Below are positions 7,984 to 60,360 of a stretch of 64,000 nucleotides of DNA, in pieces; position 1 is the stretch's first letter, and every line of letters starts with the position of its first letter. The position numbers were made by a program, and so were the translations under genes. Source of the stretch: Leptotrichia sp. HSP-342 (GTDB lineage Bacteria > Fusobacteriota > Fusobacteriia > Fusobacteriales > Leptotrichiaceae); the NCBI RefSeq assembly GCF_041199995.1, contig NZ_CP165646.1:186001-250000 (forward strand), written 5' to 3'. The notes beneath the pieces are model-generated. The model had not been told where the DNA came from and searched no databases. It was given only the letters and a program-made list of their open reading frames with translations.

Positions 7984-7986
7984 TTT

Positions 7987-40006: not shown

Positions 40007-40370
40007 TACTAAATTCCATTTAGAAATAGAAATAAATTTTTATAATAAGGTTGTTTAATAGCAAATTCGTAATTATTCAATTAAATTATTTTTTAGATAT
40101 TTTGATTAATAAATATTTTTTCATATTACTATGTTTTTTCTTTTTTATTTTCGTAGGATTGCTCATTGCCGCAAAACCTTATCTTGCAGTAAAGGTTTAT
40201 CCTGATAATTAAAATTGTGGCAAGATTGCTACGCAATAACCTATGGCTAGTCTACGACATTTTACTGCACTGACAAAAAACTCGCTATGCTCAAACAGTT
40301 TTGCCAGCACAGAAAAATGCTCCGACGGATTATTTATGCTAGACTATGTTTGAAAAATGAAAAAAATATA
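40007..40370 (+). repeat. Intergenic hairpin repeat, copy A (type I, long form)
   Basis: Starts with the end motif TACTAAATTCCATTTA (40007) and GGTTGTTTAATAGC. The core is TTCGTAGGATTGCTCATTGC, an extra 60-base insertion with an AAACCTT/AAGGTTT hairpin, the linker CCTATGGCTAGTCTACGAC, and the long type I hairpin with loop AACTCGCTATGCTCAAACAG. Occupies the tyrS-acpS gap. Its outer right part is not well matched to the other copies. Confidence 0.85.
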
Positions 40371-40375
40371 TGTAA

Positions 40376-40415
40376 ACTTATTTAAAATTAAACTACTAAA
40401 ATTATACAAATTTTG
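40376..40415 (-). repeat. Inverted fragment of the 123-bp repeat found near copy D
   Basis: The stretch AAATTAAACTACTAAAATTA and the following TACAAAT match, in reverse, the middle of the direct repeats at 52600-52722 and 53109-53231. It overlaps the region just before the acpS promoter. Confidence 0.5.
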
Positions 40416-40440
40416 TATTTTTAAAAATTTGTAGTATAAT
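40413..40440 (+). promoter_or_regulatory. Likely promoter of acpS
   Basis: TTGTAT (40413-40418) and TATAAT (40435-40440) with a 16-base spacer, about 33 bases before acpS. Confidence 0.55.
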
Positions 40441-40473
40441 CTAACAATAGCAAGTTTCAAAAAGGAGATAAAA

Positions 40474-40842
40474 ATGGAAATATACGGTATTGGGACAGAC
40501 ATTATTGAAATATCCCGAATTGAAAAAGCGATTAACCAGACAAGCCTTTTTAAAAGAAAAGTTTATACAGAAAAAGAAATTGAGCATATTGAAAAAAAGA
40601 AACATCCATATGCTAGTTATGCAGGGAGATTTGCTGCGAAAGAAGCAGTTTCCAAGGCATTTGGAACTGGGGTGCATGGGTTTTCGCTAAGTGATATTGA
40701 GATTTTGAATGATGAGATGGGGAAACCTTATGTAACGCTTTATAATGCGATAAAGGAGAAGGCACAGGGGCTTACAATACAGATTAGTATTTCACATAGC
40801 AGAGAATATGCGGTTAGTACGGTAATTATTTATAAAAAATAA
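40474..40842 (+). CDS. acpS: Holo-[acyl-carrier-protein] synthase
   Basis: A 122-residue AcpS with GIGTDIIEISRIEKA (magnesium ligand D8) and the second motif YAGRFAAKEAVSKAFGTG (ligand Glu). It transfers phosphopantetheine from CoA to ACP. An AAGGAGAT ribosome site precedes the ATG. The next gene starts 21 bases downstream and may be cotranscribed. Confidence 0.95.
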   Translation: MEIYGIGTDIIEISRIEKAINQTSLFKRKVYTEKEIEHIEKKKHPYASYAGRFAAKEAVSKAFGTGVHGFSLSDIEILNDEMGKPYVTLYNAIKEKAQGLTIQISISHSREYAVSTVIIYKK

Positions 40843-40863
40843 AAAAGAAAGGTGTGAAAAAAG

Positions 40864-42153
40864 ATGGTTTGGAGAAAAGATTTTAATATTGGGATAGAGA
40901 AAAGTAGATTTTTTGCGTTGATGATTATGCTTTTTGGTATATTTTGTATAAGTCAGATTAGTTATTCTGCTGGAAATAGTCAGTCAAAGAAAGTAAAAAT
41001 TGAGTACTTTGGTAGAAAAGACTGTAAAAATTGTGCAAATTTGGAGAAATTTTTGAAGGAATTATCTACTAAAAGGGATGATTTTGAATATGTGGAGCAT
41101 AAAATTGATGAAAGCAAGGAAGAAAAAGTGTTTTTTGATGAAACTACATCGAAGTTAAAACTTGTCAAGGGAACTCCGATTATTTACATTGACGGACATA
41201 TTATTCAAGGGTTTAATACAGCTGACACGACTGGGAAAGAAATTGAAAATTTGATAAATTCTGGGAAAACAAAGGACAAGATTTTGACTTTGAAGGAATA
41301 TGTGGAAAGTGGACAGACGGGAAATGTGAGCAGCAATGGTGCAGTCTGTACAGGCGATACAGTATGTGAGGTGCCAGGACTTACGAAAGGTGCTGAGAAT
41401 CAGGTATTTGTAAATATTCCGATTATTAATAAGACTGTTGACTTGACAAATTATTCGCTACTTACAATCTCAATAATTTTGGGAACAATTGATGGATTTA
41501 ATCCTTGTGCAATGTGGGTTCTGGTATTATTTTTGACAGCTTTGATTGCCGTTGGAAATAAGGTGAAAATGTTCCGTGTGGCAGGGCTGTTTATCTTGGC
41601 TGAAGCTGTAATGTATTTTTTCATTTTAAATGCTTGGATTTATGCTTGGGATTTTGTGGGACTTGACAAATGGGTAACCCCGCTTGTTGGAATCGTTGGA
41701 ATTATTGGTGGGATTTTCTTTATTAGAAATTACTTGAAAAAAGGAGATACGCTGGAATGTGAAGTAACAGACTTTGAGCAGAGGGCAAAAATTTCTAAAA
41801 AGATAAAGGATATTGCCAACAAGCCATTTACATTACTGACAGCACTTGCAATTATTGGCTTAGCACTTTCAGTAAATGTAATAGAATTTGCCTGTTCAGT
41901 TGGAATTCCTCAAACATACACAAAAATCCTACAAATAAATGAAGTTCCATTTTGGACTAGACAATTTTACACATTTATTTACATAATTGGCTATATGATA
42001 GATGATATAATAGTTTTTGGATTTGCCTTAATGAGTGTAAATAAATTGCAATTAACCACAAAATATTCTAAATGGGTAAATCTGTTTGGTGGAATTCTTA
42101 TGATAATTTTGGGACTCATAATGCTAATTAAGCCAAGTTTGCTTATAATGTAA
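40864..42153 (+). CDS. Thioredoxin-fold plus DsbD-like membrane protein
   Basis: A 429-residue protein: one N-terminal membrane anchor/signal (about 18-38), an extracytoplasmic thioredoxin/glutaredoxin-like domain with CKNC at C54-C57 and the cis-proline segment KGTPIIYIDG, then six or more membrane segments from about residue 195 (DGFNPCAMWVLVLFLTAL, and FACSVGIPQTY). The membrane part resembles the DsbD/CcdA transporter family and keeps one cysteine in each of the two key helices. It probably carries electrons from the cytoplasm across the membrane to the attached thioredoxin domain. Gene order thioredoxin-then-DsbD is reversed relative to classical DsbD. Confidence 0.75.
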   Translation: MVWRKDFNIGIEKSRFFALMIMLFGIFCISQISYSAGNSQSKKVKIEYFGRKDCKNCANLEKFLKELSTKRDDFEYVEHKIDESKEEKVFFDETTSKLKLVKGTPIIYIDGHIIQGFNTADTTGKEIENLINSGKTKDKILTLKEYVESGQTGNVSSNGAVCTGDTVCEVPGLTKGAENQVFVNIPIINKTVDLTNYSLLTISIILGTIDGFNPCAMWVLVLFLTALIAVGNKVKMFRVAGLFILAEAVMYFFILNAWIYAWDFVGLDKWVTPLVGIVGIIGGIFFIRNYLKKGDTLECEVTDFEQRAKISKKIKDIANKPFTLLTALAIIGLALSVNVIEFACSVGIPQTYTKILQINEVPFWTRQFYTFIYIIGYMIDDIIVFGFALMSVNKLQLTTKYSKWVNLFGGILMIILGLIMLIKPSLLIM

Positions 42154-42181
42154 ACTGGAACTAGAAAAATGAACAATTTAG

Positions 42182-42210
42182 TTTAAAAAATGAGAAAAAT
42201 TTGTTATAAT
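42182..42210 (+). promoter_or_regulatory. Likely promoter of the YwqK-type gene
   Basis: TTTAAA (42182-42187) and TATAAT (42205-42210) with a 17-base spacer. The -35 box is weak. Confidence 0.5.
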
Positions 42211-42271
42211 GTAAAAAGGTAAATTAATAAAATAAAAAAACAAACTTTATAAAATAATAGGAGATATGAAA

Positions 42272-43087
42272 ATGAAAAAAAATAATAGCAAAAAAATATT
42301 ATTTATAGCTGGAATGATGATGTTATCAGCAGTTGCATATGGAAAAGATGTATTTGCAAATTATGGGACAAATTTTGGGAAGGTTAGATTATCGAAGCTT
42401 AGCTCATCAAATATGGAAGATGTAAAAAGAATAGATTCTAGCACTTATGAATTGACAGGAAGCGGAGAATATAGAATTATGGAAGAAGGCGGAAGAAGAC
42501 TTGTTGTTAATTTAAGCAATGGAATACTGAATGGGAAATATGATGAATTTTATGCAAACGGAAATAGATTTACGATAGGAAATTATAAAAATGGAAAAAA
42601 AGAAGGAGAATGGACAGTTTATACTGAAAATGGAAAAGTCTGGAAAAAATATCAATATAAAGATGATCAGTTAAATGGACGTTATTCTTCATATTACGGA
42701 AAAACAGGGTCTCAGGAAACAGTTGGGAACTATGAGAATGGAAAAATGACAGGAACTTGGACTGAGTATTATGAAAATGGCTCGAAAAAATCACAAGGAA
42801 ATTATTCAAATGGACAGAAAAATGGATTATTTACTGAATGGAACACTAATGGAGGTAAAAAATCTGAAATTAATTATGTAAATGATGAAATAAATGGGAA
42901 AATGAATGTATACTACGAAAGCGGAAGACCTTTATATGAAGCAAATATGAATGGGGAAACTGGAACTGTAAGAGGATATCATACAGATGGAAGCCTTGGA
43001 TTTGAGGGAAGCGTTAAAGGTAGAGGAAGAACAGGAACTTGGACTTACTATGATAAATCAGGGAATCCTAGAAAAATGAATTATTAG
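42272..43087 (+). CDS. Exported YwqK/MORN-type repeat protein
   Basis: About 271 residues. ATG 42272 gives better spacing to AGGAGA than ATG 42266. A signal peptide (residues 1-24, AVAYGKD) is followed by at least six repeats of about 23 residues built on GNYKNGKKEGEWTVYTENGK. Such repeats form beta-hairpin ladders in MORN and YwqK-like proteins. Some relatives are annotated as antitoxins, but the exported location here argues for a surface or periplasmic binding role. It stands alone and is followed by repeat copy B. Confidence 0.75.
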   Translation: MKKNNSKKILFIAGMMMLSAVAYGKDVFANYGTNFGKVRLSKLSSSNMEDVKRIDSSTYELTGSGEYRIMEEGGRRLVVNLSNGILNGKYDEFYANGNRFTIGNYKNGKKEGEWTVYTENGKVWKKYQYKDDQLNGRYSSYYGKTGSQETVGNYENGKMTGTWTEYYENGSKKSQGNYSNGQKNGLFTEWNTNGGKKSEINYVNDEINGKMNVYYESGRPLYEANMNGETGTVRGYHTDGSLGFEGSVKGRGRTGTWTYYDKSGNPRKMNY

Positions 43088-43108
43088 GCTTGTTGTAGTT
43101 TTAATTAT

Positions 43109-43502
43109 TAAACCCTATTTAAATAACGAATTTATTACAAACTTTTCTAAGTAAAGGATATAAACCTAATATTTTCAAGTAATTTAAGATATAACTTTCA
43201 TTTTTTAAAAAGAATCTAATATAAATTAATCTGTCGGAGCATTTTTCTGTGCTGGCAAAACTGTTTGAGCATAGCGAGTTTTTTGTCAGTATGGAAAAAT
43301 GTCGTAGACTAGCCATAGGTTATTGCGTAGCAATCTTGCCAAATATTTTGATTGTCAGGATAAACCTTTACTGCAAGATAAGGATTTGCGGCAATGAGCA
43401 ATCCTACGAAAATAAAAAAGAAAAAAGTTGAATGATTATAAATTATCTATTGAACAACCCTATTATAAAAATTTATTTTCATTTTTAAATGGGATTTAGT
43501 AT
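43109..43502 (-). repeat. Intergenic hairpin repeat, copy B (type I, long form, inverted)
   Basis: Read on the minus strand it runs TACTAAATCCCATTTAAA (43502), AATAGGGTTGTTCAATAG, TTCGTAGGATTGCTCATTGC, the long-form insertion, the CCTATGGCTAGTCTACGAC linker, the type I hairpin and a right end at ATTTAAATAGGGTTTAA. Both ends are inverted copies of one another (TACTAAATCCCATTTA / TTAAACCCTATTTA). Lies between the YwqK-type gene and whiA. Confidence 0.9.
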
Positions 43503-43645
43503 TAATAAAAGTCTGAAAGTCCTTATTTTAACGAAATTTTATAAACAAGTGTATAGGTCTTATAAAAATAGAGCAATAATAAACATCAAAAAGTCAAAAA
43601 CTTTAATTTAGGAACAGAGAAAAAAATATAAAGAGAGGGTGAAAA

Positions 43646-44548
43646 ATGTCATATTCAGCAAATGTAAAAAGAGAAATCTTTAATTTAGAAAACACAGATA
43701 AAGATACTATTTATGCAGAGCTTTTTGGAATTTTTATTGCAAAGAATGTAATTACAGAACACGGAATTTATTTCAGCACAGAAAATGTCTCGCTTGCTAA
43801 AAGAATTTATTCAAATTTACGGGCAGTAACAAATATCCCAATTCAACTAAAATACGTTATTAGTAAGCGTCTTGGAACACACAAAATGTATGAAGTGATA
43901 CTTTTTCCCGCTCAGCACAATCAGCAGGAATACAAATCATTTTTAAAAAAAATCTATTTTCACAAAAATTTTTCAGTTGTGGAGAATGAAAAACAATTAG
44001 CTGGGATAATCAGAGGTTTTTTCCTTAGCTGTGGATATATAAAGTCTCCAGAAAAGGCTTATGCAATGGACTTTTTTGTGGATACTGAAGATTCTGCCAC
44101 TTATTTGTATTACTTGTTTAAACAGATGGGAAAAAAAGTTTTTCAGACAGAGAAAAAAAATAAGAGCCTTGTTTATTTAAGAAATTCAGAAGACATTTTG
44201 GATATAATTTTTTTAATTGGGGGAATAAATTCGTTTTTTGAATTTGAAGAAGTTACGATAAATAAGGAAATTCGAAATAAAATTAATAGAAATATGAATT
44301 GGGAAATCGCAAATGAAACAAAAAAATTATCGGCTTCTGAAAAGCAGATTAACATGATAAAGGTAATTGATGAAAAAATGGGTCTTTCAGAATTGACAGA
44401 CGTATTAAGCGAAACAGCAAGAATTCGACTGGAAAATCAGGAAATGTCCCTACAGGAACTAGCAGACTTAATGGAAATTTCCAAATCTGGAATAAAAAAT
44501 AGATTTAGACGGCTGGAAACAATTTATAAAGGACTGTTAGAAAACTAA
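43646..44548 (+). CDS. whiA: WhiA-family regulator (DUF199)
   Basis: A 300-residue protein with the WhiA order: N-terminal SYSANVKREIFNLE, two LAGLIDADG-like halves (GIIRGFFLSCGYIKSPEKAY), and a C-terminal helix-turn-helix ending ARIRLENQEMSLQELADLME. WhiA affects division and chromosome segregation in Gram-positive bacteria and is retained in some Fusobacteria. GAGAGGGTG is the ribosome site. lpxK starts 28 bases downstream. Confidence 0.9.
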   Translation: MSYSANVKREIFNLENTDKDTIYAELFGIFIAKNVITEHGIYFSTENVSLAKRIYSNLRAVTNIPIQLKYVISKRLGTHKMYEVILFPAQHNQQEYKSFLKKIYFHKNFSVVENEKQLAGIIRGFFLSCGYIKSPEKAYAMDFFVDTEDSATYLYYLFKQMGKKVFQTEKKNKSLVYLRNSEDILDIIFLIGGINSFFEFEEVTINKEIRNKINRNMNWEIANETKKLSASEKQINMIKVIDEKMGLSELTDVLSETARIRLENQEMSLQELADLMEISKSGIKNRFRRLETIYKGLLEN

Positions 44549-44576
44549 TTAAGAAAGTTAAGCTGAGGAAGAATTA

Positions 44577-45590
44577 ATGAAATTATTGTCGATTATATAT
44601 GGATTTATTGTCTTTTTACGAAACAAACTTTATGATTTGAATATTTTTAAAGAAAAAAAGGTTGATGGAGTGGAAATAGTTTGCATTGGAAATATTGTGG
44701 CAGGAGGGACTGGGAAAACACCAGCTGTGCAGTATTTTGTGCAAAAATATTTAGAAAAAAATAAAAAAGTTGGAATTCTGAGTCGAGGCTACAAGGGAAA
44801 ACGGGAAACTGATTTACTGCTTGTACGAGATGAAAAAAAGATTTATGCTACTTCAAAGGAATCAGGGGATGAAGCCTATTTGCATGCCTTAAATTTTCAA
44901 ATTCCTGTCGTAGTCTGTAAAAATCGTTATGAAGGTGCAACTTTTTTAAAAGAAAAATGTGGTGTGGAAATAATTATTATGGATGATGGTTTCCAACATA
45001 GAAAATTGAAAAAAAATAAAAATATAATTCTAATTGATGCAACAAATCCTTTTGGAATGGACGATTATTTGCCAAAGGGACGATTACGGGAGTCACTAGA
45101 TGCTTTGAAGCGGGCTGATGAAATTATTATTACAAAAAGTAACTATGTTTCGGTAGAAGAAATTGCGAAAATTAAGGAAAGACTGGCAAAATATCAAAAA
45201 TCGATTTCTGTTGCTACTTTTGAAGAAAGTTATTTTTACAAATTAAATTTTGAAAATGGTAAAAAGTTTGGTAAAATAAATAATGGAAACAAAATGGAAA
45301 ATAAAAAATTTCCATTAGAAATTATTAAGAATAAAAATGTGCTAATTTTTTCTTCAATAGCAAATCCAGCTGTATTTTATCAGACAATAAAAAAACTAAA
45401 TCCAAGTAATATTGATGAAATAAAATTTACAGATCATCACGTTTACACAAACGAAGAAATTTTGGAAATAAAAGAAAAAACCAAAAACTATGATTATGTT
45501 TTAACAACGGAAAAAGATATTGTGAAAATTGATGAAAATATAGAAAACTTAATAATTTTGAAAATGGAATTTAAAATTGTTGAAAAATAA
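44577..45590 (+). CDS. lpxK: Tetraacyldisaccharide 4'-kinase
   Basis: A 337-residue P-loop membrane-associated kinase: an N-terminal hydrophobic helix, Walker A GNIVAGGTGKTPAVQYF, and the LpxK motif IIMDDGFQHRKLKK with its catalytic Asp and DD pair. It phosphorylates the lipid A precursor, so the organism makes an outer membrane with lipid A. It follows whiA closely, an unusual pairing of a Gram-positive-type regulator with an LPS gene. Confidence 0.93.
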   Translation: MKLLSIIYGFIVFLRNKLYDLNIFKEKKVDGVEIVCIGNIVAGGTGKTPAVQYFVQKYLEKNKKVGILSRGYKGKRETDLLLVRDEKKIYATSKESGDEAYLHALNFQIPVVVCKNRYEGATFLKEKCGVEIIIMDDGFQHRKLKKNKNIILIDATNPFGMDDYLPKGRLRESLDALKRADEIIITKSNYVSVEEIAKIKERLAKYQKSISVATFEESYFYKLNFENGKKFGKINNGNKMENKKFPLEIIKNKNVLIFSSIANPAVFYQTIKKLNPSNIDEIKFTDHHVYTNEEILEIKEKTKNYDYVLTTEKDIVKIDENIENLIILKMEFKIVEK

Positions 45591-45728
45591 ATTAAATCTA
45601 AGGTTTTGGTGAAATCAAAATTTTAAAAATAAAAGTTATAAAATCAAATATAAAAAATATTGTAATTATTAAAAAAATTAGGATTTTTACAAAGATTAGA
45701 AAATGAAGCAGAAGGGAGGAATTAAATT

Positions 45729-46517
45729 TTGACTGAAAATAAAAAGCTGGAAAATGAAAATGTATTTTCAAATACAGAAAATTTTTCACAATTTATTCTA
45801 AAATATAAAAATAATTTTGAAAAACGAAAATATTTTCAGCTTGACAAAAATTTTAAGATAACATCTAAAGAACCATCATTTATACTAGAATTGGGATATA
45901 TTTATTTTAGTGAAAACAAAAAAAATGAAAATATAAAGCAAATCATAAGGGAACAATTTTTGGAAACATTTAAGGAAAAAGACAAAAAGATTGAACGGTT
46001 AAGCAAAGTTGAACTTCCCAAATTAATAGACGGATTTCGAAGAAGTATTTTTAATAAAGAATCAATTTATGCTGTAAAATTAGGAAATGAATTGCTGTAT
46101 CGGGATAAAGATAAATTTTTTGAAATTTTATACAATTATTCATTAATTTCAATAGATACAAATAAACTTGTAAAGACTTTTTTTACAAAAAAAATGATAG
46201 AAATAATTGAAGCTGAAAACAGTTCAAAATTTAACGAAATTCGTGATAAAATAGACGAAATAATAAAAAATATTATAAATTATTTCACAAAATCTGATTC
46301 AGCTTTCTTAAATTTTGAAAATGTGGAAAACTTAAACTATTTTGTGGAAAATCAAGCTGATGAACTTTACAAAAAAATTTATGTGGAAAATTACAATAAA
46401 ATTGTGGAAAAATATAATATTCAAAATGTGAAAAAAATAGAATTTAGTAAAAATTATGATTTTGAAAATTTAAGCGAAAGTAAAAAAGTATTGTATGAAT
46501 ATCTTGAAAATATTTAA
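45729..46517 (+). CDS. Hypothetical protein, Lys/Asn/Glu-rich
   Basis: A 262-residue protein starting at TTG with a strong GAAGGGAGG site 9 bases upstream. It has no signal peptide or membrane segment and is predicted mostly helical, with repeated charged stretches (NEIRDKIDEIIKNIINYF). I do not recognise a domain. It may be cotranscribed with lpxK, 138 bases upstream. Confidence 0.6.
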   Translation: MTENKKLENENVFSNTENFSQFILKYKNNFEKRKYFQLDKNFKITSKEPSFILELGYIYFSENKKNENIKQIIREQFLETFKEKDKKIERLSKVELPKLIDGFRRSIFNKESIYAVKLGNELLYRDKDKFFEILYNYSLISIDTNKLVKTFFTKKMIEIIEAENSSKFNEIRDKIDEIIKNIINYFTKSDSAFLNFENVENLNYFVENQADELYKKIYVENYNKIVEKYNIQNVKKIEFSKNYDFENLSESKKVLYEYLENI

Positions 46518-46583
46518 TTTTTATTTTAACTTATTTTAGTTAATAATTGTTTTTTCTCTTTTTTTATGTTATTTATTTTAACG

Positions 46584-46610
46584 TAAGAGTATCAGACGCC
46601 ATACTCTTTT
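46584..46610 (+). terminator. Terminator after the hypothetical gene
   Basis: AAGAGTAT pairs perfectly with ATACTCTT across an 8-base loop and is followed by further T. The rest of the 488-base gap to serS has no supported gene; it contains an 11-base inverted repeat, CTTTCACAATA (46768) and TATTGTGAAAG (46811), and a GC-richer patch at 46665-46700. Confidence 0.75.
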
Positions 46611-47005
46611 TCGCAATAAAAGTTATTTTAACATATTTAACTAATTACTATTTGAAACTGATGGCGAAACGTTCTACGAACTACCCCGCTTACGCAAAAC
46701 TTTTTTATAAAGAAAAAATAAAACTCGATTTTGAATAAAGATTATTTTAAATATACAAAATCTCACTTTCACAATATAAAGGTTAAAATAATTCAAATAA
46801 TAGCAGTTATTGTGAAAGAAACACATTCGTGTTTAGTTATTTTTTCTTTAACAAAATTTTGCTTGTTTTTTGTTTTAGTTAAATTAACTGTTATAATCAA
46901 AAAAAGAAAAAATAGTTATTAAATAATAATTTTTTTAGATTAAAACACTTTAATAATTCAATAAATTTAGATAATAAATATATACAGGAAAGGAAATAAA
47001 AAATT

Positions 47006-50257: not shown

Positions 50258-50282
50258 TAACAAATAAAAAATGAAAATTAAT

Positions 50283-50325: not shown

Positions 50326-50439
50326 TAAGTTTTACATAAATAAAATTTGTTTAAAAGAGGTGAAAATTTTTTTTTTCCTCTTTTTTTGTGGGAAAAACAA
50401 CATAATTATTTAAAAATATAAATAGAAAAATAGTTATTG

Positions 50440-50759
50440 TTTAAAAATGAGAATAAATTTTATAATAGGGTTGTTCAATAGCTAATTCCTAATCATTCAA
50501 CTTTTTTATTTTCGTAGGATTGCTCATTGCCGCAAATCCTACAACCTATGGCTAGTCTACGACATTTTTCTGCACTGGCAAAAAACTCGCTATGCTCAAA
50601 CAGTTTTGCCAGCACAGAAAAATGCTCCGACGGATTAGTTTATACTAATCTCTATTTAAAAAATGAAAATTATATCTTAAATTACTTGAAAATATTAGGT
50701 TTATATCTTTTATTAGAAAAGTTTATAATAGATTTATTATTTAAATGTGGATTAGTATT
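50440..50759 (+). repeat. Intergenic hairpin repeat, copy C (type I, short form)
   Basis: Contains AATAGGGTTGTTCAATAG, the short hairpin GTAGGATT ... AATCCTAC, the CCTATGGCTAGTCTACGAC linker, the type I long hairpin (21-base arms with two adjacent mismatches) and an ending ATTTAAATGTGGATTAGTA. It lies between fba and pyrG. Confidence 0.9.
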
Positions 50760-50894
50760 AATCAGAATAACTAAAATATAAAAAAAAATTAATAGAATAG
50801 TTTAAAAAATAATAGACTACTAAATTAAGTGATATTTTATAAAATTGCCAAAATATTTAAAACTGAATAAATAAGAATAGAAATAGGAGGAAAA

Positions 50895-52508: not shown

Positions 52509-52533
52509 TAATAATTAATTGAAAAATAAATTA

Positions 52534-52577: not shown

Positions 52578-52599
52578 TAAATTTTAAAATAATTCGATA

Positions 52600-52722
52600 T
52601 AAAACTGCTTTAAAACTGAATTCAAAAGTTATGACTATTTTAATCAAACCTTAAATTTGTATAATTTTTAGTAGTTTAATTTTAAAAAGATTTGAGTATA
52701 AAATTAAGAAAAAACAATTATT
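52600..52722 (+). repeat. 123-bp direct repeat, left copy
   Basis: Closely repeated at 53109-53231, with exact blocks such as CAAAAGTTATGACTATTTTA and AGAAAAAACAATTATTA. The two copies flank hairpin repeat D. Confidence 0.8.
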
Positions 52723-52736
52723 ATATTATCTTCCGT

Positions 52737-53108
52737 TTAAAAATGAGAATAAATTTTTTATAATAGGGTTGTTCAATAGCTAATTCATAAGCTGATTCCT
52801 AATCATTTAAATTTTTAATTTTTTCTTTTCGTAGGATTGCTCATTGCCGCAAATCCTTATCTTGCAATAAAGATTTATCCTAAGAATCAAAATGTATGGC
52901 AAGATTGCTACGCAACACCTATGGCTAGACTACGACTTTTATTTACCCAACTTCGAAACTCCTCCTTTCAGTCGTCAAACAGTCGCAGTTGAACAAATAA
53001 AAGCTCCGTCGGTTTATTAAATTATATTTTAATTATTTTGAAATACTAGGTTTTTATCCTTTATTGGAGAAGTTTGTAATAAATTCGTTATTTAAATAGG
53101 ATTTATAG
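52737..53108 (+). repeat. Intergenic hairpin repeat, copy D (type II, long form)
   Basis: Shares the GTTTAAAAATGAGAATAAAT start, AATAGGGTTGTTCAATAGC, the TTCGTAGGATTGCTCATTGC core and CCTATGGCTAG linker with the other copies, but carries the type II hairpin: arm CTTTTATTTACCCAACTTCG and a matching AAATAAAAG arm around a loop containing AAACTCCTCC and GTCAAACAGT. Ends near TTATTTAAATAGGATTTATA. Confidence 0.85.
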
Positions 53109-53231
53109 TAAAATTGCTTTAAAAATAAACTCAAAAGTTATGACTATTTTAATCAAACCCTAAATCTATATAATTTTTAGCAGTTTAATTTTAAATAGGT
53201 TTGAGTATAGTATAAGAAAAAACAATTATTA
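53109..53231 (+). repeat. 123-bp direct repeat, right copy
   Basis: Counterpart of 52600-52722, placed at the right end of hairpin repeat D. Confidence 0.8.
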
Positions 53232-53287
53232 AACAAAACAATTCAAAATATAAATTCACAGAATAGTTAGTATGAAAATAAATAACA

Positions 53288-53326
53288 AATAAAAAAAGAC
53301 GATCTTAAAAATAAGAAAGTCTTTTT
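53288..53326 (-). terminator. Terminator of ptsH
   Basis: AAAGAC ... GTCTTT with an inner TTA/TAA pairing forms a hairpin flanked by A and T runs, so it can work in both directions. It lies about 80 bases after the ptsH stop on the minus strand. Confidence 0.65.
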
Positions 53327-53405
53327 TTCTAGTTCAATAAAACATATTTTCTATAACAAATCTATAAAAAACAATATTTTTATTTCACTTAATTACTACA
53401 ATTTA

Positions 53406-53666: not shown

Positions 53667-53699
53667 TTATTTATCCTCCTTAATTATATCTCTATCTTA

Positions 53700-53728
53700 A
53701 TTTTACAACAGTTTTCGGTATTTGTCAA
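53700..53728 (-). promoter_or_regulatory. Promoter of ptsH
   Basis: On the minus strand TTGACA (53728-53723) and TAAAAT (53705-53700) stand 17 bases apart, about 35 bases before the ptsH start. Confidence 0.85.
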
Positions 53729-53788
53729 TAAGTGTGAAAACATTTTTTCTGTTAGTCAGTCAAACAATATTTTTTATTTTTAAAAAAT

Positions 53789-55420
53789 TTACTGAACTTC
53801 GATTAATAGAGAGTGAAAGTTTGTATAAATAACATTTCCTGGTTTACTATTTTTTATTTTTTTTACAAATTTTCTTTCACAGTAATCAACAGTAACTTTG
53901 TCGCCTTTTTTCGCTTTAGAATACTCACAGGCAAGGTTTGCAGCATGCAAAAGAACATCGTTTGGAAGTTCTTGATTATTTCGTAAAATAAGGACATGAC
54001 TTCCAGGAATATCCTTTATGTGCAACCAAATGTCATTCGGTTGTCCTTTGGAAAAGGAAATTTCCTCGTTTTCCTTATTGTTTCTTCCAATAAAAATTTG
54101 AAAGCCTTTGTAGTCAAACGACAATAACTCACGTTTTTTCGGTTTGTTCAATTTAATTTTATTTTTTGATTTATTTCCATTATTTGTTAAATTCAGTTCA
54201 TTTTCAATTTCTTCAATTCCAATAAAATCATTTTCTTTTTCGATAAACATTATTATTTCTTCAAAATATTTTATTTCATTTTGAATATCTAAAAATCTAG
54301 AATTTAAGGCGGAAATAGTTCGTTTTCCCTTATTATATTTATTATAATAAAAATTCAGATTATCGTTTGGAGATAAGAGCGGATCCAAATTTATTGTAAT
54401 TTCCTGATTGTTATAAAAGTCAAAAACTGTAACTTTTTTCATTCCATATTTTATTTGGTGCATATTTGCTGCCAAAATATCCCCGATATTTTTATAATTT
54501 TCAAAATTTTCATTTTTTTTCAAGTCAACTTTTATATTTTTTTCAATTTTTTTGAATTTTTTTATTTGAGAATCAACATATTTTAGCAAGTTTTTCTTTT
54601 TTTCGCTAATAACATTGGAAGTAATAGTTGTTTTAAAATAAGCATTTAAACCATCATTTACGGTTTCAAAATATTTTCTTCCATTTTTTAAATTTGTATT
54701 TTCCTTTTGGCTAAATTCAGAAAATTCGTTGTAAGTTAGCACTTTTTGAATTTTTCTACGATTTATGATTTCATACATTACTGGCTTATAGCCAGATAAA
54801 TATTTTTTGAAAGTATCATAATTTTGTGAACACTCTAGTGCAAAAGCACGTCCGACACCTTCAATTTTTTCCATAAAAGATTCTGTTTCAAATGGAAAAT
54901 TTTCAGCTTCTAGATATATAGGTGAAATCTTTTTTTCCTCAAATGGCAATGTATATTTCGCGCCAGTCATAATAACACGGTTCCCAACATCAATTGAAGT
55001 AAAATAAAGAGCAGACAAAATTTTGTCCTTGCTAGTCAGAAAAATATTGCTCGCTTTTCCCATAATCTCAATAATTAACGTATATTTTTCCACATCTCCA
55101 AACTGATTTAACTTCTCGAAGTCAAAATAAACAATCCTGTCAAAACCTTCTTGACGGATATTTATCAAAATTGAATTTTGCAGATATTTTTTTAATGACA
55201 ATAAAAATTTTGACTGAAAATTAGTATTTGGATCTTTTTCATCTTTTAAATAAAAAATTGTTGAATTGTCTTTTACTTGAAAAATTAAGTTATTTTTTCC
55301 AAAAAAGAGTGAAAATGAAACTCTGTCATATTGGAAAATCTTTGTCAGTTTATATCGTAATATTTTTTCTTTTATTTCTTTTATCAAAAATGAAATCCCA
55401 ATTCCATCTAAATAAAGCAT
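53789..55420 (-). CDS. rqcH: RqcH/NFACT-family ribosome quality control protein
   Basis: A 543-residue protein in NFACT order: N-terminal FbpA-like domain (ending in the EIMGKASNIFLTSKDKIL stretch), a coiled-coil middle (about 290-400) and the C-terminal NFACT-R domain with FQIFIGRNNKENEEI, then NDIWLHIKDIPGSHVLIL. RqcH binds stalled 50S-peptidyl-tRNA and adds alanine tails. Older annotation calls this family fibronectin-binding protein. It is the last gene of the minus-strand cluster that starts with the PASTA protein. Confidence 0.9.
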   Translation of the reverse strand: MLYLDGIGISFLIKEIKEKILRYKLTKIFQYDRVSFSLFFGKNNLIFQVKDNSTIFYLKDEKDPNTNFQSKFLLSLKKYLQNSILINIRQEGFDRIVYFDFEKLNQFGDVEKYTLIIEIMGKASNIFLTSKDKILSALYFTSIDVGNRVIMTGAKYTLPFEEKKISPIYLEAENFPFETESFMEKIEGVGRAFALECSQNYDTFKKYLSGYKPVMYEIINRRKIQKVLTYNEFSEFSQKENTNLKNGRKYFETVNDGLNAYFKTTITSNVISEKKKNLLKYVDSQIKKFKKIEKNIKVDLKKNENFENYKNIGDILAANMHQIKYGMKKVTVFDFYNNQEITINLDPLLSPNDNLNFYYNKYNKGKRTISALNSRFLDIQNEIKYFEEIIMFIEKENDFIGIEEIENELNLTNNGNKSKNKIKLNKPKKRELLSFDYKGFQIFIGRNNKENEEISFSKGQPNDIWLHIKDIPGSHVLILRNNQELPNDVLLHAANLACEYSKAKKGDKVTVDYCERKFVKKIKNSKPGNVIYTNFHSLLIEVQ

Positions 55421-55443
55421 ATTTCACTCCCTTTCTACAACTT

Positions 55444-56106
55444 TTAAAGCGTATTTTTTCTAACCATGATATTTTCTGCATCTTCAATATTTAAAACTTT
55501 TTCATCCCCATCAACAATTAAAGTTATTAAATATTTATCAATATTTAAAATTTTTATAAGTGATTTTATCATAACGCCTTTTTCGTTTAGATATTTTCTA
55601 ATTGCAGTACTTCCTTTGATAGAAGAGACTTGCACTAAATCATTTTTTTCAAAATTTAAGATTGATTCGGGTTGAATGTCTTTTTTGACTTTATCTAGGT
55701 TTTTTACGATTCTTTCAAAAACTTCGATAAATGTGTCCAGTTTTTTTTGTGGAATATCATCTGTAATTTTTTCTAGAATGTTTGAGTGAAAATCTCCGTG
55801 ATAGTTTAATGCAACTTTTCCTTTTGAAGTTAGTTTTACAAAAACTTTACGCCTGTCGGTATCTGATCGGGAACGTTCCAAAAATTGCTTATCAGTCAGC
55901 TTATTTACTGCAACTGAGGCAGTTCCCATTGTAATGCCCAATTTATCAGATAATTCATTCATTGTAATTTCATTTTCTCCAATAGCTTCAATAATGTGAA
56001 GTTCAGATGTAGTCAAACATTTAATTACCTGATTTAAATTTATTTCTTCAATTTTGTAATATGTTTTATAAAATTTGTCTAATAGATTTTCTATTTTTTC
56101 ATACAT
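55444..56106 (-). CDS. MarR-type regulator fused to a FeoA-like domain
   Basis: The 220-residue product has a MarR winged helix (about 30-140): LTTSELHIIEAIGENEITMN, then SVAVNKLTDKQFLERSRS and the wing DTDRRKVFVKLTSKG. The last 75 residues (FEKNDLVQVSSIKGSTAIRK to the end) look like an FeoA/SH3-type beta barrel of the sort found at the C terminus of metal-responsive DtxR/MntR proteins. The combination suggests a metal- or redox-responsive repressor; the ligand is not known. A perfect palindrome lies about 85 bases upstream. rqcH starts 23 bases after it. Confidence 0.7.
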   Translation of the reverse strand: MYEKIENLLDKFYKTYYKIEEINLNQVIKCLTTSELHIIEAIGENEITMNELSDKLGITMGTASVAVNKLTDKQFLERSRSDTDRRKVFVKLTSKGKVALNYHGDFHSNILEKITDDIPQKKLDTFIEVFERIVKNLDKVKKDIQPESILNFEKNDLVQVSSIKGSTAIRKYLNEKGVMIKSLIKILNIDKYLITLIVDGDEKVLNIEDAENIMVRKNTL

Positions 56107-56187
56107 TTTATCTGTTCCTTTCTTCTTTTATTTACAATTTTTTATTTTATCTGTTTTTTCATATTTTTTACATTTAATCTTTTTTTA

Positions 56188-56200
56188 TATCTAATAGATA
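56188..56200. promoter_or_regulatory. Candidate operator for the MarR/FeoA regulator
   Basis: TATCTA-A-TAGATA is a perfect 6-1-6 palindrome in the gap between rpe and the regulator gene, about 85 bases before its start. Binding by the regulator is inference. Confidence 0.4.
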
Positions 56201-56268
56201 GATAAATAATTTTAGAATTTGAATAAAGCAGACATAATTTTTGAGTTCAATTTTAAGATACTTTTACA

Positions 56269-56901
56269 TTATTTCAGGGAATCAATTTTTTCTTTATAAT
56301 TTCCGCTAAAAATATAGGAACCTGCAACTAGCACATTTGCCCCAGCTTCTTTTACCAGCTTAGCAGTTTTGTCATTTATTCCACCATCCACTTCAATATC
56401 AATGTTTTTATTAATTTTTCGCAAATCTTTTATTTTCTGTATCATTTCAGGAATGAATTTTTGCCCGCCAAAACCGGGATTCACAGTCATAATTAGAACC
56501 ATATCAATGTTATCCAGGTCATATTTTATAACATCCAGCGGAGTAGATGGATTTAATGCGACACCTACTTTTTTTCCAAAAGATTTTATTAACTGTATTG
56601 TTCTGTTCAAGTGCTTTGTAGCTTCGGCATGGATTGTGATTATGTCTGAAAAATCAGCAAAATCTTTTATTAAATAATCTGGTTCGTTTACCATCAGATG
56701 TACATCAAACACAAGGTTGCTATGTTTTCGTAAAGATGAAATGACAGGAGCTCCAAAGCTGATATTTGGAACAAAATTTCCATCCATAACATCTAAATGC
56801 AGGTATTCTGCTCCAAGTTTTTCCACTTCTGTGATTTCTTCCCTCAGTTTACTAAAGTCTGCAGCAAGTAGCGAAGGTGCTATTATAATTTTTTTATCCA
56901 T
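56269..56901 (-). CDS. rpe: Ribulose-phosphate 3-epimerase
   Basis: A 210-residue TIM-barrel enzyme with IIAPSLLAADFSKL, the metal-binding block HLDVMDGNFVPNISFG, the second block VMTVNPGFGGQKFI (here MTVNPGFGGQ) and the EVDGGI strand. It interconverts ribulose-5-phosphate and xylulose-5-phosphate. It follows rsgA by 37 bases, the same order as in Firmicutes. Confidence 0.96.
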   Translation of the reverse strand: MDKKIIIAPSLLAADFSKLREEITEVEKLGAEYLHLDVMDGNFVPNISFGAPVISSLRKHSNLVFDVHLMVNEPDYLIKDFADFSDIITIHAEATKHLNRTIQLIKSFGKKVGVALNPSTPLDVIKYDLDNIDMVLIMTVNPGFGGQKFIPEMIQKIKDLRKINKNIDIEVDGGINDKTAKLVKEAGANVLVAGSYIFSGNYKEKIDSLK

Positions 56902-56938
56902 AAAAAATCAACTCTTTTCTTTAATTAAATGTCAGGTT

Positions 56939-57835
56939 TTAGGTATATTTTAAAAATCGTATATTTTCAAGCGAGTATAAATAAAAATCATACCGTTCTT
57001 TTGAGATATTGCCATTTTCTATATTTTCCTTAATTGCACAATTTGGCTCATTTACGTGAATACAGTCTCGAAATTTACAGTCAGGAATAAATTCGAGAAA
57101 CTCTGGAAATAATTTTTCCAGTTCTTTTTTTTCTTCCAGCTTAGGAAAATCAAGTGTTGAAAATCCTGGCGTGTCTATTATGTATGAATGTGGAGCTGGC
57201 ATAAAAAATCGACTTTCTATCGTAGTATGTCGTCCTTTTTTAGTTTTCTCGCTAATATCGTTTGTAGTTAGTATTTCTTCTCCAATTAAAGTGTTAATAA
57301 GCGTGGATTTTCCAGCTCCCGACGGTCCTGAAATTACAACAGATTTTTCATTTATATATTGTTGTAATTCGTTAATTCCAGTATTTGTTTCAGTTGAAAT
57401 TGGGAAAATAGAAATTATATCTTTAAAAATTTGTTTAAATTTATTAAAGAATTCCTCCAGTTCTTCTTTTGAAACTAAGTCAATTTTAGATAATATGAGT
57501 ACAACTGGAATATTTTGAGAATTTGCATTTAAGAGCATTTTCTGAAAATTTGTAAAATCAAAATTTGGACTTTTTATTGCAAATAAAATACCGATAAAAT
57601 CAATATTTGCAATTAGTGGACGATATAAAAAGTTTTCTCTTTTTTCAATTTTTTCAATAACTTTTTCCTTTTCGTCAAATTCTACGCAGTCTCCAATAAC
57701 ACAATTCATTTTATCATTTTTCACTTTTAATGTTCCACGTAATTTACATTCATAAATATTTTCTTCATTCAAATTTTTGGAATTTTCATCCAAAACATAG
57801 TAAAATCCTTTTATTTTTCTAATAACTTTTCCTTT
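56939..57835 (-). CDS. rsgA: Ribosome small-subunit GTPase A
   Basis: A circularly permuted GTPase with G4 LSKIDLV, then G1 SGPSGAGKSTL and G3 DTPGF, and a zinc site CKFRDCIHVNEPNC. It helps mature the 30S subunit. A TTG at 57793 gives 284 residues but would cut off the first OB-fold strand. Clear homology (IKGKVIRKIKGFYYVLDENS) extends in frame to 57835, where the only start is ATT. The good ribosome site AAAGGAG near 57890 serves a TTG in a different frame; losing one T at 57836-57840 would join them. So the start is either non-canonical or frameshifted. Confidence 0.85.
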   Translation of the reverse strand, partial: KGKVIRKIKGFYYVLDENSKNLNEENIYECKLRGTLKVKNDKMNCVIGDCVEFDEKEKVIEKIEKRENFLYRPLIANIDFIGILFAIKSPNFDFTNFQKMLLNANSQNIPVVLILSKIDLVSKEELEEFFNKFKQIFKDIISIFPISTETNTGINELQQYINEKSVVISGPSGAGKSTLINTLIGEEILTTNDISEKTKKGRHTTIESRFFMPAPHSYIIDTPGFSTLDFPKLEEKKELEKLFPEFLEFIPDCKFRDCIHVNEPNCAIKENIENGNISKERYDFYLYSLENIRFLKYT

Positions 57836-57914
57836 AATAAAAATATTTGGGAGAAATTTTAAAATAAAAATTCAAAATAACTCCCATCTCCTTTCTAAAT
57901 TTTTGCTGTTTTAG

Positions 57915-58865
57915 CTATTCGTCACCGTCATCGTCACTAGAATCACTATTATTTCCTCCGCCTTGTGTATTGTTACGTGGTGAAGATTGAGTGTTTCCAT
58001 TATTTTTTTGTTCAGTACCTTGCTGATCTATTTTGTTAATTGTATTATCAATAATTCTTTCAATTTCCTGATTATCTATTTCTTCTTGAGATTTATTAAT
58101 AATTTCCTCTGTCGATCTTTCACGTTTTTTCGGAGCTGCTCCAGTATTTAATACAATTGATACCTTCTGTCCTCTCTGAATCTTAGTTCCAGCTGCAGGA
58201 TTTGTAGAAATAATCGTATTTACAGGCAATGTTGGGTCACTTGTACGTGAAATATTTCCAATATCAAGTCCAATTTGTTTTAACAATTCTCTTGCATCAT
58301 TTAAGTCAAGTCCTATTATATTTGGCATAACTGATGGATCTACCATTTGCTGTGAAGAAACTAGTATTGAAATTTTTTGGTTAATTTCAAGTTTTGTACC
58401 TGGTTTTGGATAAACTCCCAAAATCGTATTATATTTCTGATTAGACGGGTAATAATCAATCGTTTCAATCTGAATATTTTGCCCTTTTAATCGAGATCTT
58501 GCTTCAAGTAGTTCCAGTCCAATAATATTAGGTACTTTTACATCTTCTCCGTTATTTACCCAGATTCTTATAACTCTGTTTACTTTAACTTCTTTACCCG
58601 GACGTGGATCTTGGTTATAAACCGTATCCAATGGTACTTTTTCTGTTTTAGAATTAATAACTTTGACTTTTAACCCGGCTTTTTTCAAATATTTTACAGC
58701 ATCCTTTTTATTAAGGTTCATAACATCAGGAATAACTGTAAGTCTAGTGTTAAAAAAATGACGTTCAAAAACATCCTTACCAAATCTTATTAATGCCACT
58801 AAACAAAGCAGTACAATAATAGTTCTAAAAAATTTTCCATAATTAAATTTATATTTTGTGGCCAT
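57915..58865 (-). CDS. Membrane-anchored protein with three PASTA domains, no kinase
   Basis: A 316-residue protein: a short cytoplasmic start, one membrane segment (about 13-28), three PASTA domains (about 40-110, 110-175 and 178-245; each with PNIIGL or PDVMNL and a PxPGTK-type turn), and a low-complexity Asn/Ser/Asp tail. It sits just before rsgA and rpe, the position occupied by the PASTA serine/threonine kinase PrkC in Firmicutes, but the kinase domain is absent. It probably binds peptidoglycan or muropeptides in the periplasm. The start is preceded by GAGGTG. Confidence 0.88.
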   Translation of the reverse strand: MATKYKFNYGKFFRTIIVLLCLVALIRFGKDVFERHFFNTRLTVIPDVMNLNKKDAVKYLKKAGLKVKVINSKTEKVPLDTVYNQDPRPGKEVKVNRVIRIWVNNGEDVKVPNIIGLELLEARSRLKGQNIQIETIDYYPSNQKYNTILGVYPKPGTKLEINQKISILVSSQQMVDPSVMPNIIGLDLNDARELLKQIGLDIGNISRTSDPTLPVNTIISTNPAAGTKIQRGQKVSIVLNTGAAPKKRERSTEEIINKSQEEIDNQEIERIIDNTINKIDQQGTEQKNNGNTQSSPRNNTQGGGNNSDSSDDDGDE

Positions 58866-58937
58866 TTTTCACCTCGTTATTTTTATTGTTAATTCTTTAC
58901 TCTATATAATATCATAAATATTGAAAAAATGATATAA

Positions 58938-59129
58938 ATTTATTTTTTTAGATTGTAATTCGTCTTTTATATTTTTTAAGAAATCTTACCTAGAAGAAAT
59001 TGATTTATGTGACATATTACAAAGCGTAGTTTATACAAATATGGAATTTAATCTAATACAAGATAACGAAGAATTAAATGATGTTAAAAAGGTGACAGGC
59101 AAAATAGAGATGAAATTCTATAACAATTA
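58938..59129 (+). pseudogene. Fragment of an unrecognised gene
   Basis: An open stretch of 63 codons without an early start codon (first ATG at 59041) reads YLEEIDLCDILQSVVYTNME and ends GKIEMKFYNN. It looks coding but lacks its 5' part. Function unknown. Confidence 0.3.
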
Positions 59130-59184
59130 ATTTGGTAGTTTTGTAAATCTAATTTTTAAGTATCCATACAAGATTTTCATGATA

Positions 59185-59538
59185 GGGTTGTTTAATAGCT
59201 AATTCGTAATTATTAAATTAAATTATTTTTTATATATTTTAATTAATAAATATTTTTTCATATTATTATGTTTTTTCTTTTTCTTTTCGTAGGATTGCTC
59301 ATTGCCGCAAATCCTACAACCTATGGCTAGTCTACGACATTTTTCTGCACTGACAAAAAACTCGCTATGCTCAAACAGTTTTGCCAGCACAGAAAAATGC
59401 TCCGACAAATTAATTCATACTAGAATCTATTTAAAAGGTGAAAATTATATCTTAAAATTACTTGAAAAAATTAGGTTTATATACTTTATTAATTAGAAAA
59501 GTTTGTAATAAATTTGTTATTTAAATGGGAAATAGTAT
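59185..59538 (+). repeat. Intergenic hairpin repeat, copy E (type I, short form)
   Basis: Runs from GATAGGGTTGTTTAATAGC through the GTAGGATT/AATCCTAC hairpin, the CCTATGGCTAGTCTACGAC linker and the type I hairpin to the ending TTATTTAAATGGGAAATAGTA. It forms an inverted pair with copy F around the small lipoprotein gene. Confidence 0.9.
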
Positions 59539-59677
59539 CAGACAGAATAGAAAAGAATATTTACTCAAAAAAAGACAGGAGTACATTCCCCTGTATAGGA
59601 AACCCCTGCCTCTCTGTATATATTTCATAGCTTTTAAACCATTTTCATCCATCTTATCTTTTCCATGTCACATGTAT

Positions 59678-59857
59678 CTAATAGACTCTGTTTCCGTATC
59701 TATCCTTGCAGTAATAATATCCACTAGAATCCTTAAAACATCTTCTACCTTCTTCTCTTCTTTCCTGTTCCGCTTCTTTCCATAGGGCAATATCACGTGC
59801 ACTGCATCCTATAATTGCCACAGTAAGTATAATCATAAGTAAAATTTTCTTAAACAT
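59678..59857 (-). CDS. Small lipoprotein, CSARDIALWKE family (second copy)
   Basis: A 59-residue protein on the minus strand with a membrane segment and lipobox AIIGC (C18). The mature start CSARDIALWKEAEQERR, two later cysteines (CFKDSSGYYYC) and the end RVY match the lipoprotein at 2097-2267. A GGAGATGAT ribosome site precedes the ATG. Function unknown. It is the only gene between repeat copies E and F. Confidence 0.8.
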   Translation of the reverse strand: MFKKILLMIILTVAIIGCSARDIALWKEAEQERREEGRRCFKDSSGYYYCKDRYGNRVY

Positions 59858-60117
59858 TTCATATCATCTCCTTCTGTTTTAAATATCTATGTCAAATATT
59901 TATTCTGTTTTATGTATTAACTATTTGTGTTCTTTTTATATTTTTATTATACAATATTTTAAGTTGGAATACAAATTGCTTTTTCTATTTCTGAGGAAAA
60001 TTCAATAAAAAATAAAATTATATCTAAATTACAATGTAATTTAAAATATTTTGATAAAAAACGAATTGCAATTTTTTTAAAACATAGTAGATATTTTATT
60101 TGAGATTTGTACTTTAA

Positions 60118-60360
60118 TACTAAACTCCATTTAAATAACGAATTTATTACAAACTTTTCCAACAAAGGATAAAAACCTAATATTTCAAAATAATTAAAAT
60201 ATAATTTTTTTGTTTTAATAAACCGACGGAGCTTTTATTTGCCCAACTACGACTGTTTGACGACTGAAAGGAGGAGTTTCGGAGTTGGGCAAATAAAAGT
60301 CGGAGTCTAGCCATAGGTTGTAGGATTTGCGGCAATGAGCAATCCTACGAAAAGAAAAAG
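60118..60360 (-). repeat. Intergenic hairpin repeat, copy F (type II, short form, inverted)
   Basis: The plus strand begins TACTAAACTCCATTTAAATA at 60118. On the minus strand the order is TTCGTAGGATTGCTCATTGC, AATCCTAC, CCTATGGCTAGACTCCGAC, then the type II hairpin, whose 20-base arms (CTTTTATTTGCCCAACTCCG) match at 19 of 20 positions around a loop with AAACTCCTCC and GTCAAACAGT. Confidence 0.9.

Follow-up and report, generated by a model that had tools for sequence, protein, structure and literature searches.

The 64,000-nucleotide stretch of Leptotrichia sp. HSP-342 DNA analysed here (the window) contains six copies, A to F, of an intergenic repeat. Its 20-nt core TTCGTAGGATTGCTCATTGC, comprising the 5' arm and loop of a first hairpin (P1), has exactly six exact matches in the window and none in 100 dinucleotide shuffles. 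The copies, two examples of a second hairpin (P2) and two copies of a separate 107-bp MITE ("s107") are located as follows.

40007..~40375, + strand: copy A, with the left terminal inverted repeat (TIR) TACTAAATTC at 40007
40150..40169, + strand: core of copy A, exact match
43106..43501, - strand: copy B, with both TIRs, leader, core with insert, type I P2 and tail
43391..43410, - strand: core of copy B, exact match
50438..50757, + strand: copy C, with core, P1 without insert, type I P2 and full tail
50511..50530, + strand: core of copy C, exact match
50563..50624, + strand: example of a type I P2, apical loop AACTCGCTATGCTCAAACAG
52600..52697, - strand: 107-bp MITE copy, left of D
52724..53105, + strand: copy D, with core with insert, type II P2 and tail
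52828..52847, + strand: core of copy D, exact match
53106..53206, - strand: 107-bp MITE copy, right of D
59172..59537, + strand: copy E, with leader and leader insert, P1 without insert, type I P2 and tail
59286..59305, + strand: core of copy E, exact match
60118..60422, - strand: copy F, with P1 without insert and type II P2
60232..60297, - strand: example of a type II P2, 17-bp perfect stem
60332..60351, - strand: core of copy F, exact match

The element is about 300-430 bp long and is delimited by inverted ends of about 19 bp, TACTAAAC(C/T)CC(A/G)TTTAAA. Its interior follows the order promoter-like leader, P1, optional insert, linker, P2 (in one of two types) and tail; the tail also occurs alone, as an element of about 121 bp with its own TIRs. 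Copy B is the most complete of the six. Copy A runs from its left TIR through the leader, a leader insert, P1 with an insert of about 57 nt and the linker to a type I P2, after which a truncated tail begins with TTTATGCTAGACTATGTTTG and the sequence diverges. The left TIR is damaged in copy C, of which the right TIR reads ..GGATTAGTA, and is lost in copy E, of which the tail ends with ..AAATAGTA. Copy F retains an intact right TIR (TACTAAACTCC) and has a diverged left end and leader. Copy D is flanked on both sides by the 107-bp MITE, and its tail passes directly into one of these repeats. The 57-nt insert, between core and linker, is found in A, B and D and is absent from C, E and F.

A first-pass annotation of this DNA had described a six-copy hairpin family with a common layout. 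The family is borne out by the six cores, but several details of the layout had to be corrected. The linker is indeed present in all six copies. The leader motif is found in five (with at most three mismatches), the exception being the diverged leader of F. The tail, thought to be common to all copies, is not intact in A and runs into another repeat in D. The single long hairpin attributed to all copies is in fact of two sequence types, type I in A, B, C and E and type II in D and F. Short inverted repeats at the ends do exist, but outside B and F at least one of the two is no longer recognisable. The copies do lie between the larger ORFs (considering ORFs of at least 80 aa) and, as had been stated, in both orientations, and they encode no credible protein: an 84-aa ORF (50527-50781) overlapping copy C and an 86-aa ORF (59525-59785) overlapping the right edge of copy E are neither of them gene-like.

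Allowing two mismatches, the core was found in 11 of 13 Leptotrichia genomes (0 to 51 matches each) and in none of 27 other genomes; the backward sequence, used as a control, had no match in any of the 40. The counts reach 51 in G009, 38 in G011, 35 in G012 and 51 in L. hongkongensis (HK), and G006 has none. A wider genome scan returned at least 73 stretches, its Leptotrichia matches coming from just two genomes as against 11 by the core count; eight of the 73 were lone core matches outside Leptotrichia with no surrounding element and were discarded. The element was found neither in viral contigs (exact core pattern) nor in plasmids and phages (blastn with copy B). In L. hongkongensis, 52 of 55 cores are intergenic in a genome that is about 83% coding according to a crude ORF set. 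Two of 52 cores lie in divergent gaps, against 149 of 1189 gaps overall, a difference that is not significant (p = 0.08).

Dispersed copies share their TIRs: in L. hongkongensis and at other loci, copies are enclosed by TIR pairs. The elements are short, present in many copies and devoid of a transposase gene. Comparison with empty alleles of relatives revealed, among the matches listed, three distinct sites at which the net difference is a duplicated TNA of 3 bp: TCA (filled in G001 at L056, empty in L. hongkongensis), TAA (filled at L. hongkongensis 181143 and its G001 ortholog L046, empty in G007) and TTA (filled at L. hongkongensis 1369143, empty in G002). The copy at L. hongkongensis 634612 is nested in a 107-bp MITE, the difference there being 3 bp (TAA/TAG). 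Many other filled/empty comparisons among those listed are nested or paralogous joins and give no clean site. The outer triplets match in 14 of 29 TIR-bounded copies, related copies included, against 10.0 by permutation (p = 0.06); in B and F of the window the triplets differ. Empty-site mapping, which the first-pass annotation had put forward as a check, thus succeeded in relatives but gave no base-exact empty site for the window's own six copies, the corresponding intervals being too different in length. Of 13 genomes with both flanks of the copy B interval, 11 lack the core there and two, G001 and G009, have it. The same two genomes carry the core in opposite orientation in the copy C interval. 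The copy D interval is 193-196 bp long and core-free in G002, G010 and G012, and the copy E interval of G011 shows the same leader followed by a type II module with an insert.

IS630 elements of 1117-1119 bp carrying the same ends as the MITE were identified, two in G003 and one in G006, with the outer edges TTA/TTA, TAA/TAA and TTA/TGA. In the copy at L270 the transposase is split over two overlapping frames carrying HTH and DDE_3 domains, which match NF033545, one at 2-129 with 75.6 bits, under the cut-off of 100, the other at 138-298 with 123.5 bits, over it; in the copies at L281 and L272 it is seen in shorter or separate pieces. The search for a partner covered two transposase families, PF01609 and PF13358. 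PF01609 was rejected: none of its 30 loci is tightly bounded by a TIR pair, some having MITE copies nearby. Also rejected were an ORF between TIRs in the window and another in L. hongkongensis, both of which lie between two separate repeats. No intact partner IS, that is no TIR-bounded ORF of at least 200 aa forming an IS, was found in L. hongkongensis. The two distributions do not match, L. hongkongensis having 51 cores without a partner IS and G006 a partner IS without a core. For IS630 elements a TA duplication of 2 bp is the usual description, whereas the duplication seen here is of 3 bp (TNA), a combination with IS630 that gave no match in the open-access texts searched.

Based on these sequence comparisons, we put at roughly 80% the probability that the element is a non-autonomous DNA transposon (MITE) likely mobilised in trans by an IS630-family transposase, and the six copies very probably belong to one Leptotrichia MITE family. 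Most likely, the transposase from a full-length element would bind the shared ends, excise the MITE and reinsert it at an intergenic TNA target, duplicating that target in the process. The earlier suggestion of a non-autonomous mobile element is in this respect upheld by the shared TIRs, the empty sites of relatives and the IS630-family transposon with the same ends.

Comparable elements are known from other bacteria. RUP (repeat unit of pneumococcus), as described in the cited passages, is a 107-bp, non-coding, intergenic, high-copy repeat with TIRs matching IS630-Spn1, for which trans mobilisation was proposed (PMC2229807, PMC3049150); it inserts at TA targets, with no functional motif reported. 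The Leptotrichia MITE is likewise non-coding, intergenic and high-copy, with TIRs matching an IS630-family element of its host group (in G003 and G006), but differs from RUP so described in its length, its modular build and its target. The separate 107-bp Leptotrichia MITE is a closer look-alike. BOX of Streptococcus (boxA-boxB-boxC) is described as composite: some of its internal modules are optional, and its transcript is predicted to fold (PMC3049150). Compared by description, the Leptotrichia element is similarly composite, but where BOX has tandem boxB arrays it has one or the other of two hairpins and one insert that may be absent. Correia/NEMIS elements, listed as TIR-bounded MITEs with target duplication (PMC2229807), have these two traits in common with the present family, by description, and other hosts. 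A text search of the open-access literature brought up no Leptotrichia MITE family among the matches listed. The element is thus a MITE of an already known, RUP/BOX-like kind; its two-hairpin cargo is undescribed.

The cargo retains its pairing while its sequence changes. Both P1 and P2 keep their stems in copies of different sequence, P2 also across genera. Matched P2 arms bind at -13.5 kcal/mol against -6.5 (sd 0.6) for swapped arms. Of 51 insert-free copies, 49 have either T-A or C-G at a covarying pair of P1; the pattern used in the P1 arm-swap test did not capture F1, which was counted separately. The P2 loop occurs in 25 of 96 Fusobacteriales genomes and in 3 of 293 genomes beyond, and is constant across nine Fusobacteriales genera while the stem sequence changes; Leptotrichia is included among the 25 genomes and the nine genera. 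The two P2 arm types sit between identical linker and end sequences, and the same module architecture is found in F2, a second repeat family of the genus. Since P2 extends across the order and further Leptotrichia repeat families also contain the module, the module was probably captured by the MITE rather than repeatedly lost, and is probably exchanged among copies by recombination. A TATAAT box is found in 30 of 37 leaders (a count without a chance control), and the leader may be transcribed. On a bolder and rather unlikely reading, P1-linker-P2 would represent an undescribed family of structured RNA or single-strand DNA in Fusobacteriota and a few other phyla, with the constant 20-nt P2 loop as a recognition site for a protein or RNA, riding unrelated repeats and transcribed in the MITE by the leader promoter. 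Five spellings of the loop had no match in the open-access texts searched. An Rfam hit, which the first-pass annotation had named as a result that would speak against it, did not appear: the whole window gave three tRNAs only at the gathering threshold, and for copies B, F and C and two relatives no family reached its threshold in a relaxed search.

The copies might instead be mainly mobile structured RNA genes, their leader-promoted two-hairpin RNA acting in trans or on neighbours and transposition only spreading them. The TATAAT boxes, the conserved loops with covarying stems, the F2 architecture and the P2 loops across the order suit such genes, and to this extent the earlier idea of a mobile structured RNA stands; but the few orthologous modules compared show no constraint. 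Module positions differ at 84 of 1371, more than those of leader (26/1217), tail (13/1113) or flanks (126/4455). These values come from nine rows out of 27 loci (five distinct locus pairs, four sites), rows lacking a flanking alignment or containing N having been dropped and those of G001 being weak, with assembly N runs and doubled cores inside elements. At site B, the comparison with L. hongkongensis shows 8 differences over 178 module positions and none over the 265 positions of the arms (p = 0.0006). No host selection on the module was found in the nine rows, and its faster change relative to the arms at these few sites speaks against a fixed host function. No canonical terminator was seen by eye in the element either, and we regard RNA genes as the primary entity as doubtful. 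The same rapid change would be expected if the covarying stems were a product of template switching that repairs imperfect palindromes, with no selection involved and the hairpins being replication by-products. Such correction is known for long inverted repeats. It accounts neither for the P2 loop constant over nine genera nor for two arm types within one unchanged frame of linker and end sequence, and we consider it unlikely.

It is highly improbable that the repeats are palindromes of the REP/BIME type, mobilised by a tyrosine transposase of the Y1 (REP-associated) class. REPs, in the cited account, are 20-40 bp units of which super-families are defined by an unpaired terminal GTAG or CGTC, the GTAG types being hypothesised to be moved by RAYTs (PMC3733652). 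The Leptotrichia repeats are also intergenic palindromes, and the foot of P1 begins with GTAG (in TTCGTAGG), one of these two published tags. Yet this GTAG is part of the P1 stem, where it becomes GCAG as its partner changes too, and is therefore not an unpaired tag. The element is TIR-bounded, and TIRs with a TNA duplication suit a DDE transposase. Y1_Tnp (PF01797) is encoded in 10 of 13 genomes of the genus, other carriers of the element included, but has no match in the core-rich G009, G011 and G012.

With the preferred reading of an IS630-mobilised MITE, the analysis points to what probably drives a repeat family that, in the genomes of many oral Leptotrichia, numbers dozens of copies. The interest of this MITE is that its interior appears to be an exchangeable two-hairpin cassette and not decayed transposon sequence, and the P2 loop offers a concrete target for seeking a binding partner or an RNA function.

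The first-pass annotation had described six copies (A to F) of a hairpin element in the window sharing a 20-nt core, and exactly six core matches were recovered, against 0 in 100 shuffles. In line with its claim that the copies are intergenic, their positions fall between the larger ORFs. The proposed common order (leader, core, linker, long hairpin, tail) holds as a general layout, from which individual copies depart. Relative to mononucleotide shuffles, copies C, E and F, folded singly, are clearly more stable (z -3.6 to -5.8), and A, B and D, which bear an insert of about 57 nt, little more so (z -0.9 to -1.6). Three tRNA genes are clustered at 7824-8059 of the window.

Allowing up to two mismatches, the core pattern was found in 11 of 13 Leptotrichia genomes (G001 to G013) and in 0 of 27 other genomes, with 0 matches for the backward control.

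Core matches per Leptotrichia genome
G001 41; G002 31; G003 12; G004 6; G005 6; G006 0; G007 41
G008 0; G009 51; G010 29; G011 38; G012 35; G013 2

Among these genomes G001 is the closest to the window (50% of sampled 31-mers in common). A scan of a GTDB genome collection returned at least 73 stretches, of which L. hongkongensis JMUB5056 and L. sp. oral taxon 879 contribute 65; it is incomplete, since the core pattern is present in nine further Leptotrichia genomes. The 8 stretches outside those two genomes were rejected as lone core matches with no surrounding element, and no element was found in the viral contigs, plasmids and phages searched. At four loci of the oral taxon 879 draft (L039, L041, L084, L091) the elements contain stretches of N or a doubled core, which suggests collapsed or gap-filled repeats.

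The inverted ends of full copies read TACTAAAC(C/T)CC(A/G)TTTAAA. Flanks were joined and alleles without the element were sought; at least three distinct clean empty sites were obtained among the joins listed, the remaining ones being nested or paralogous.

Empty sites in relatives
Site 1: G001 filled, AATAAACTCA/TACTAAAC...TTAGTA/TCACTAAC; L. hongkongensis empty, AATAAACTCACTAAC
Site 2: L. hongkongensis 181143-181528 filled; G007 empty; TAA (the G001 locus L046 is orthologous, and both are counted once as one insertion)
Site 3: L. hongkongensis 1369143-1369510 filled; G002 empty; TTA

Another copy, at L. hongkongensis 634612, is nested in a 107-bp MITE, and there too the difference is 3 bp (TAA/TAG). 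By these empty sites the net duplication is thus 3 bp, TNA. In 29 copies bounded by terminal inverted repeats (TIRs), related ones included, the outer triplets match in 14 versus 10.0 by permutation (p = 0.06), and the 3-bp point therefore rests on the empty sites, not on the bulk. Precise empty sites, named beforehand as support for mobility, were found at these three sites in relatives; for the window's own copies comparison with relatives' intervals gave absences and no base-exact empty site: the B interval has a core in G001 and G009 and none in 11 of 13 genomes, the D interval is core-free in G002, G010 and G012 (193-196 bp), and E and F are absent from G001.

In mechanism the nearest known system is RUP, a 107-bp MITE with TA target sites that is proposed to be moved by IS630-Spn1 (PMC2229807, PMC3049150). 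Unlike RUP, the Leptotrichia MITE showed no TA duplication when this was tested, and it is therefore not classed as a RUP-type member; by analogy, it appears to work like RUP without belonging to that type. BOX comes nearest in anatomy, as its internal modules are optional and its transcript is predicted to fold (PMC3049150). Identity with GTAG/CGTC REPs (PMC3733652) was rejected: three element-rich genomes lack Y1 transposases, and the GTAG is paired. The words Leptotrichia, Fusobact- and IS630 are absent from a review of MITEs in prokaryotes published in 2024 (PMC10969869), and word searches of one open-access library gave no named family for the element under the words used.

A PF13358 (DDE_3) search gave 19 matches, three of which (two in G003, one in G006) sit in an element of 1117-1119 bp whose two ends are TACTAAACCCCGTTTAAA and a close variant of it. 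At locus L270 the transposase, with HTH and DDE_3 domains, is spread over two overlapping frames, matching the IS630 family model NF033545 (cut-off 100 bits) at positions 2-129 in one frame (75.6 bits) and 138-298 in the other (123.5 bits); in the L281 and L272 copies it lies in shorter or separate pieces. G006 has the IS and 0 core matches, and an intact partner IS with MITE-type ends, sought in L. hongkongensis, was not found there. Judging from the ends, we infer that IS630 enzymes would mobilise the MITEs in trans.

In a second IS630 subfamily of the genus the right end reads ..TTTTAAATAGGTTTTACTATAA and resembles one end of the separate 107-bp MITE, of which L. hongkongensis holds 96 copies (E < 1e-3). 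This MITE is RUP-like in length, and the second subfamily is its possible engine.

Copies of the 107-bp MITE in the window
52600-52697
53106-53206
56201-56267

Window 19934-20303 holds another element between TIRs, 370 bp long and core-free, with remnants resembling the hairpins of two other repeat families, F2 and F3; L. hongkongensis lacks it near 2033429, where the junction differs by 3 bp.

Covarying stems had been named as support for the element, and both hairpins show them. For P1, which contains the core, 96 copies were tabulated (51 without the insert, 42 with it and lacking the pairing partner, 3 unclassed). At the second stem position, 39 of the 51 insert-free copies pair T with A, another 10 pair C with G, and 2 are mismatched (Fisher p = 1e-9 on 50 of them, not a tally of independent events because the copies are related). 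F2 (16 copies) and F3 in L. hongkongensis keep the P1-linker-P2 layout with different stem sequences, and in 12 distinct F2/F3 pairs matched P1 arms bind at -13.0 kcal/mol versus -8.5 (sd 0.8) when swapped. For P2, the long hairpin, 27 distinct arm pairs gave -13.5 matched versus -6.5 swapped (sd 0.6; lowest of 200 swaps -8.4); they come from 62 matches in Leptotrichia and nine other Fusobacteriales genomes, by a pattern that omits type II loops. Of 96 Fusobacteriales genomes, 25 carry the P2 loop AACTCGCTNNGCTCAAACAG; they represent 9 of 27 genera, Leptotrichia among them (backward control 0). In a wider set of 389 genomes the loop is present in 28, with 3 of 293 outside Fusobacteriales and one backward-control match. 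The known Rfam family that might have accounted for the element did not emerge: nothing exceeded threshold, the lowest E-value (0.0025) being a microRNA family with 26 of 80 required bits.

Of the 16 F2 copies, 8 have an inverted F3 on their downstream side, at a distance of about 225-303 bp (e.g. L219 of L. hongkongensis, about 1850-2350). Other Fusobacteriales genera also have long hairpins that share this P2 loop (L286-L296, including L293 of G070); one query further matched 24 places on a replicon of Ilyobacter polytropus and a single place on plasmids of Aureibacter and of Parabacteroides.

Module models were counted across L. hongkongensis at E < 1e-3.

Module matches in L. hongkongensis
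Leader 32; core 55; insert 28; linker 42; tail 70
P2 type II 24; P2 type I 53 (both strands score, the model being nearly palindromic)

The tail starts with an inward TIR copy. Tail-only groups number 18, some of which may carry an undetected leader, and leader plus tail without hairpins also exists (e.g. 1929463-1929670). TATAAT is present in 30 of 37 leaders, a raw count in an AT-rich segment. With a crude set of genes drawn from ORFs, 52 of the 55 cores fall in intergenic DNA, between co-directional (39), convergent (11) or divergent (2) genes.

At four orthologous sites (27 loci gave nine alignments, which represent five distinct locus pairs) the P1-linker-P2 module changes most, with 84/1371 differences versus 26/1217 in the leader, 13/1113 in the tail and 126/4455 in the flanks, the G001 rows being suspect because of assembly quality. 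Between the window and L. hongkongensis alone, the module has 8/178 differences versus 0/265 in the arms at site B (p = 0.0006), and the figures at site A are 11/122 versus 9/265 (p = 0.03). At site E the same leader is followed by type II with the insert in G011, and by type I without it in the window; a rearrangement involving F could conceivably have produced this difference, although F is inverted. Exchange of modules between copies is the simplest reading, and such exchange argues against a fixed host function for each site.
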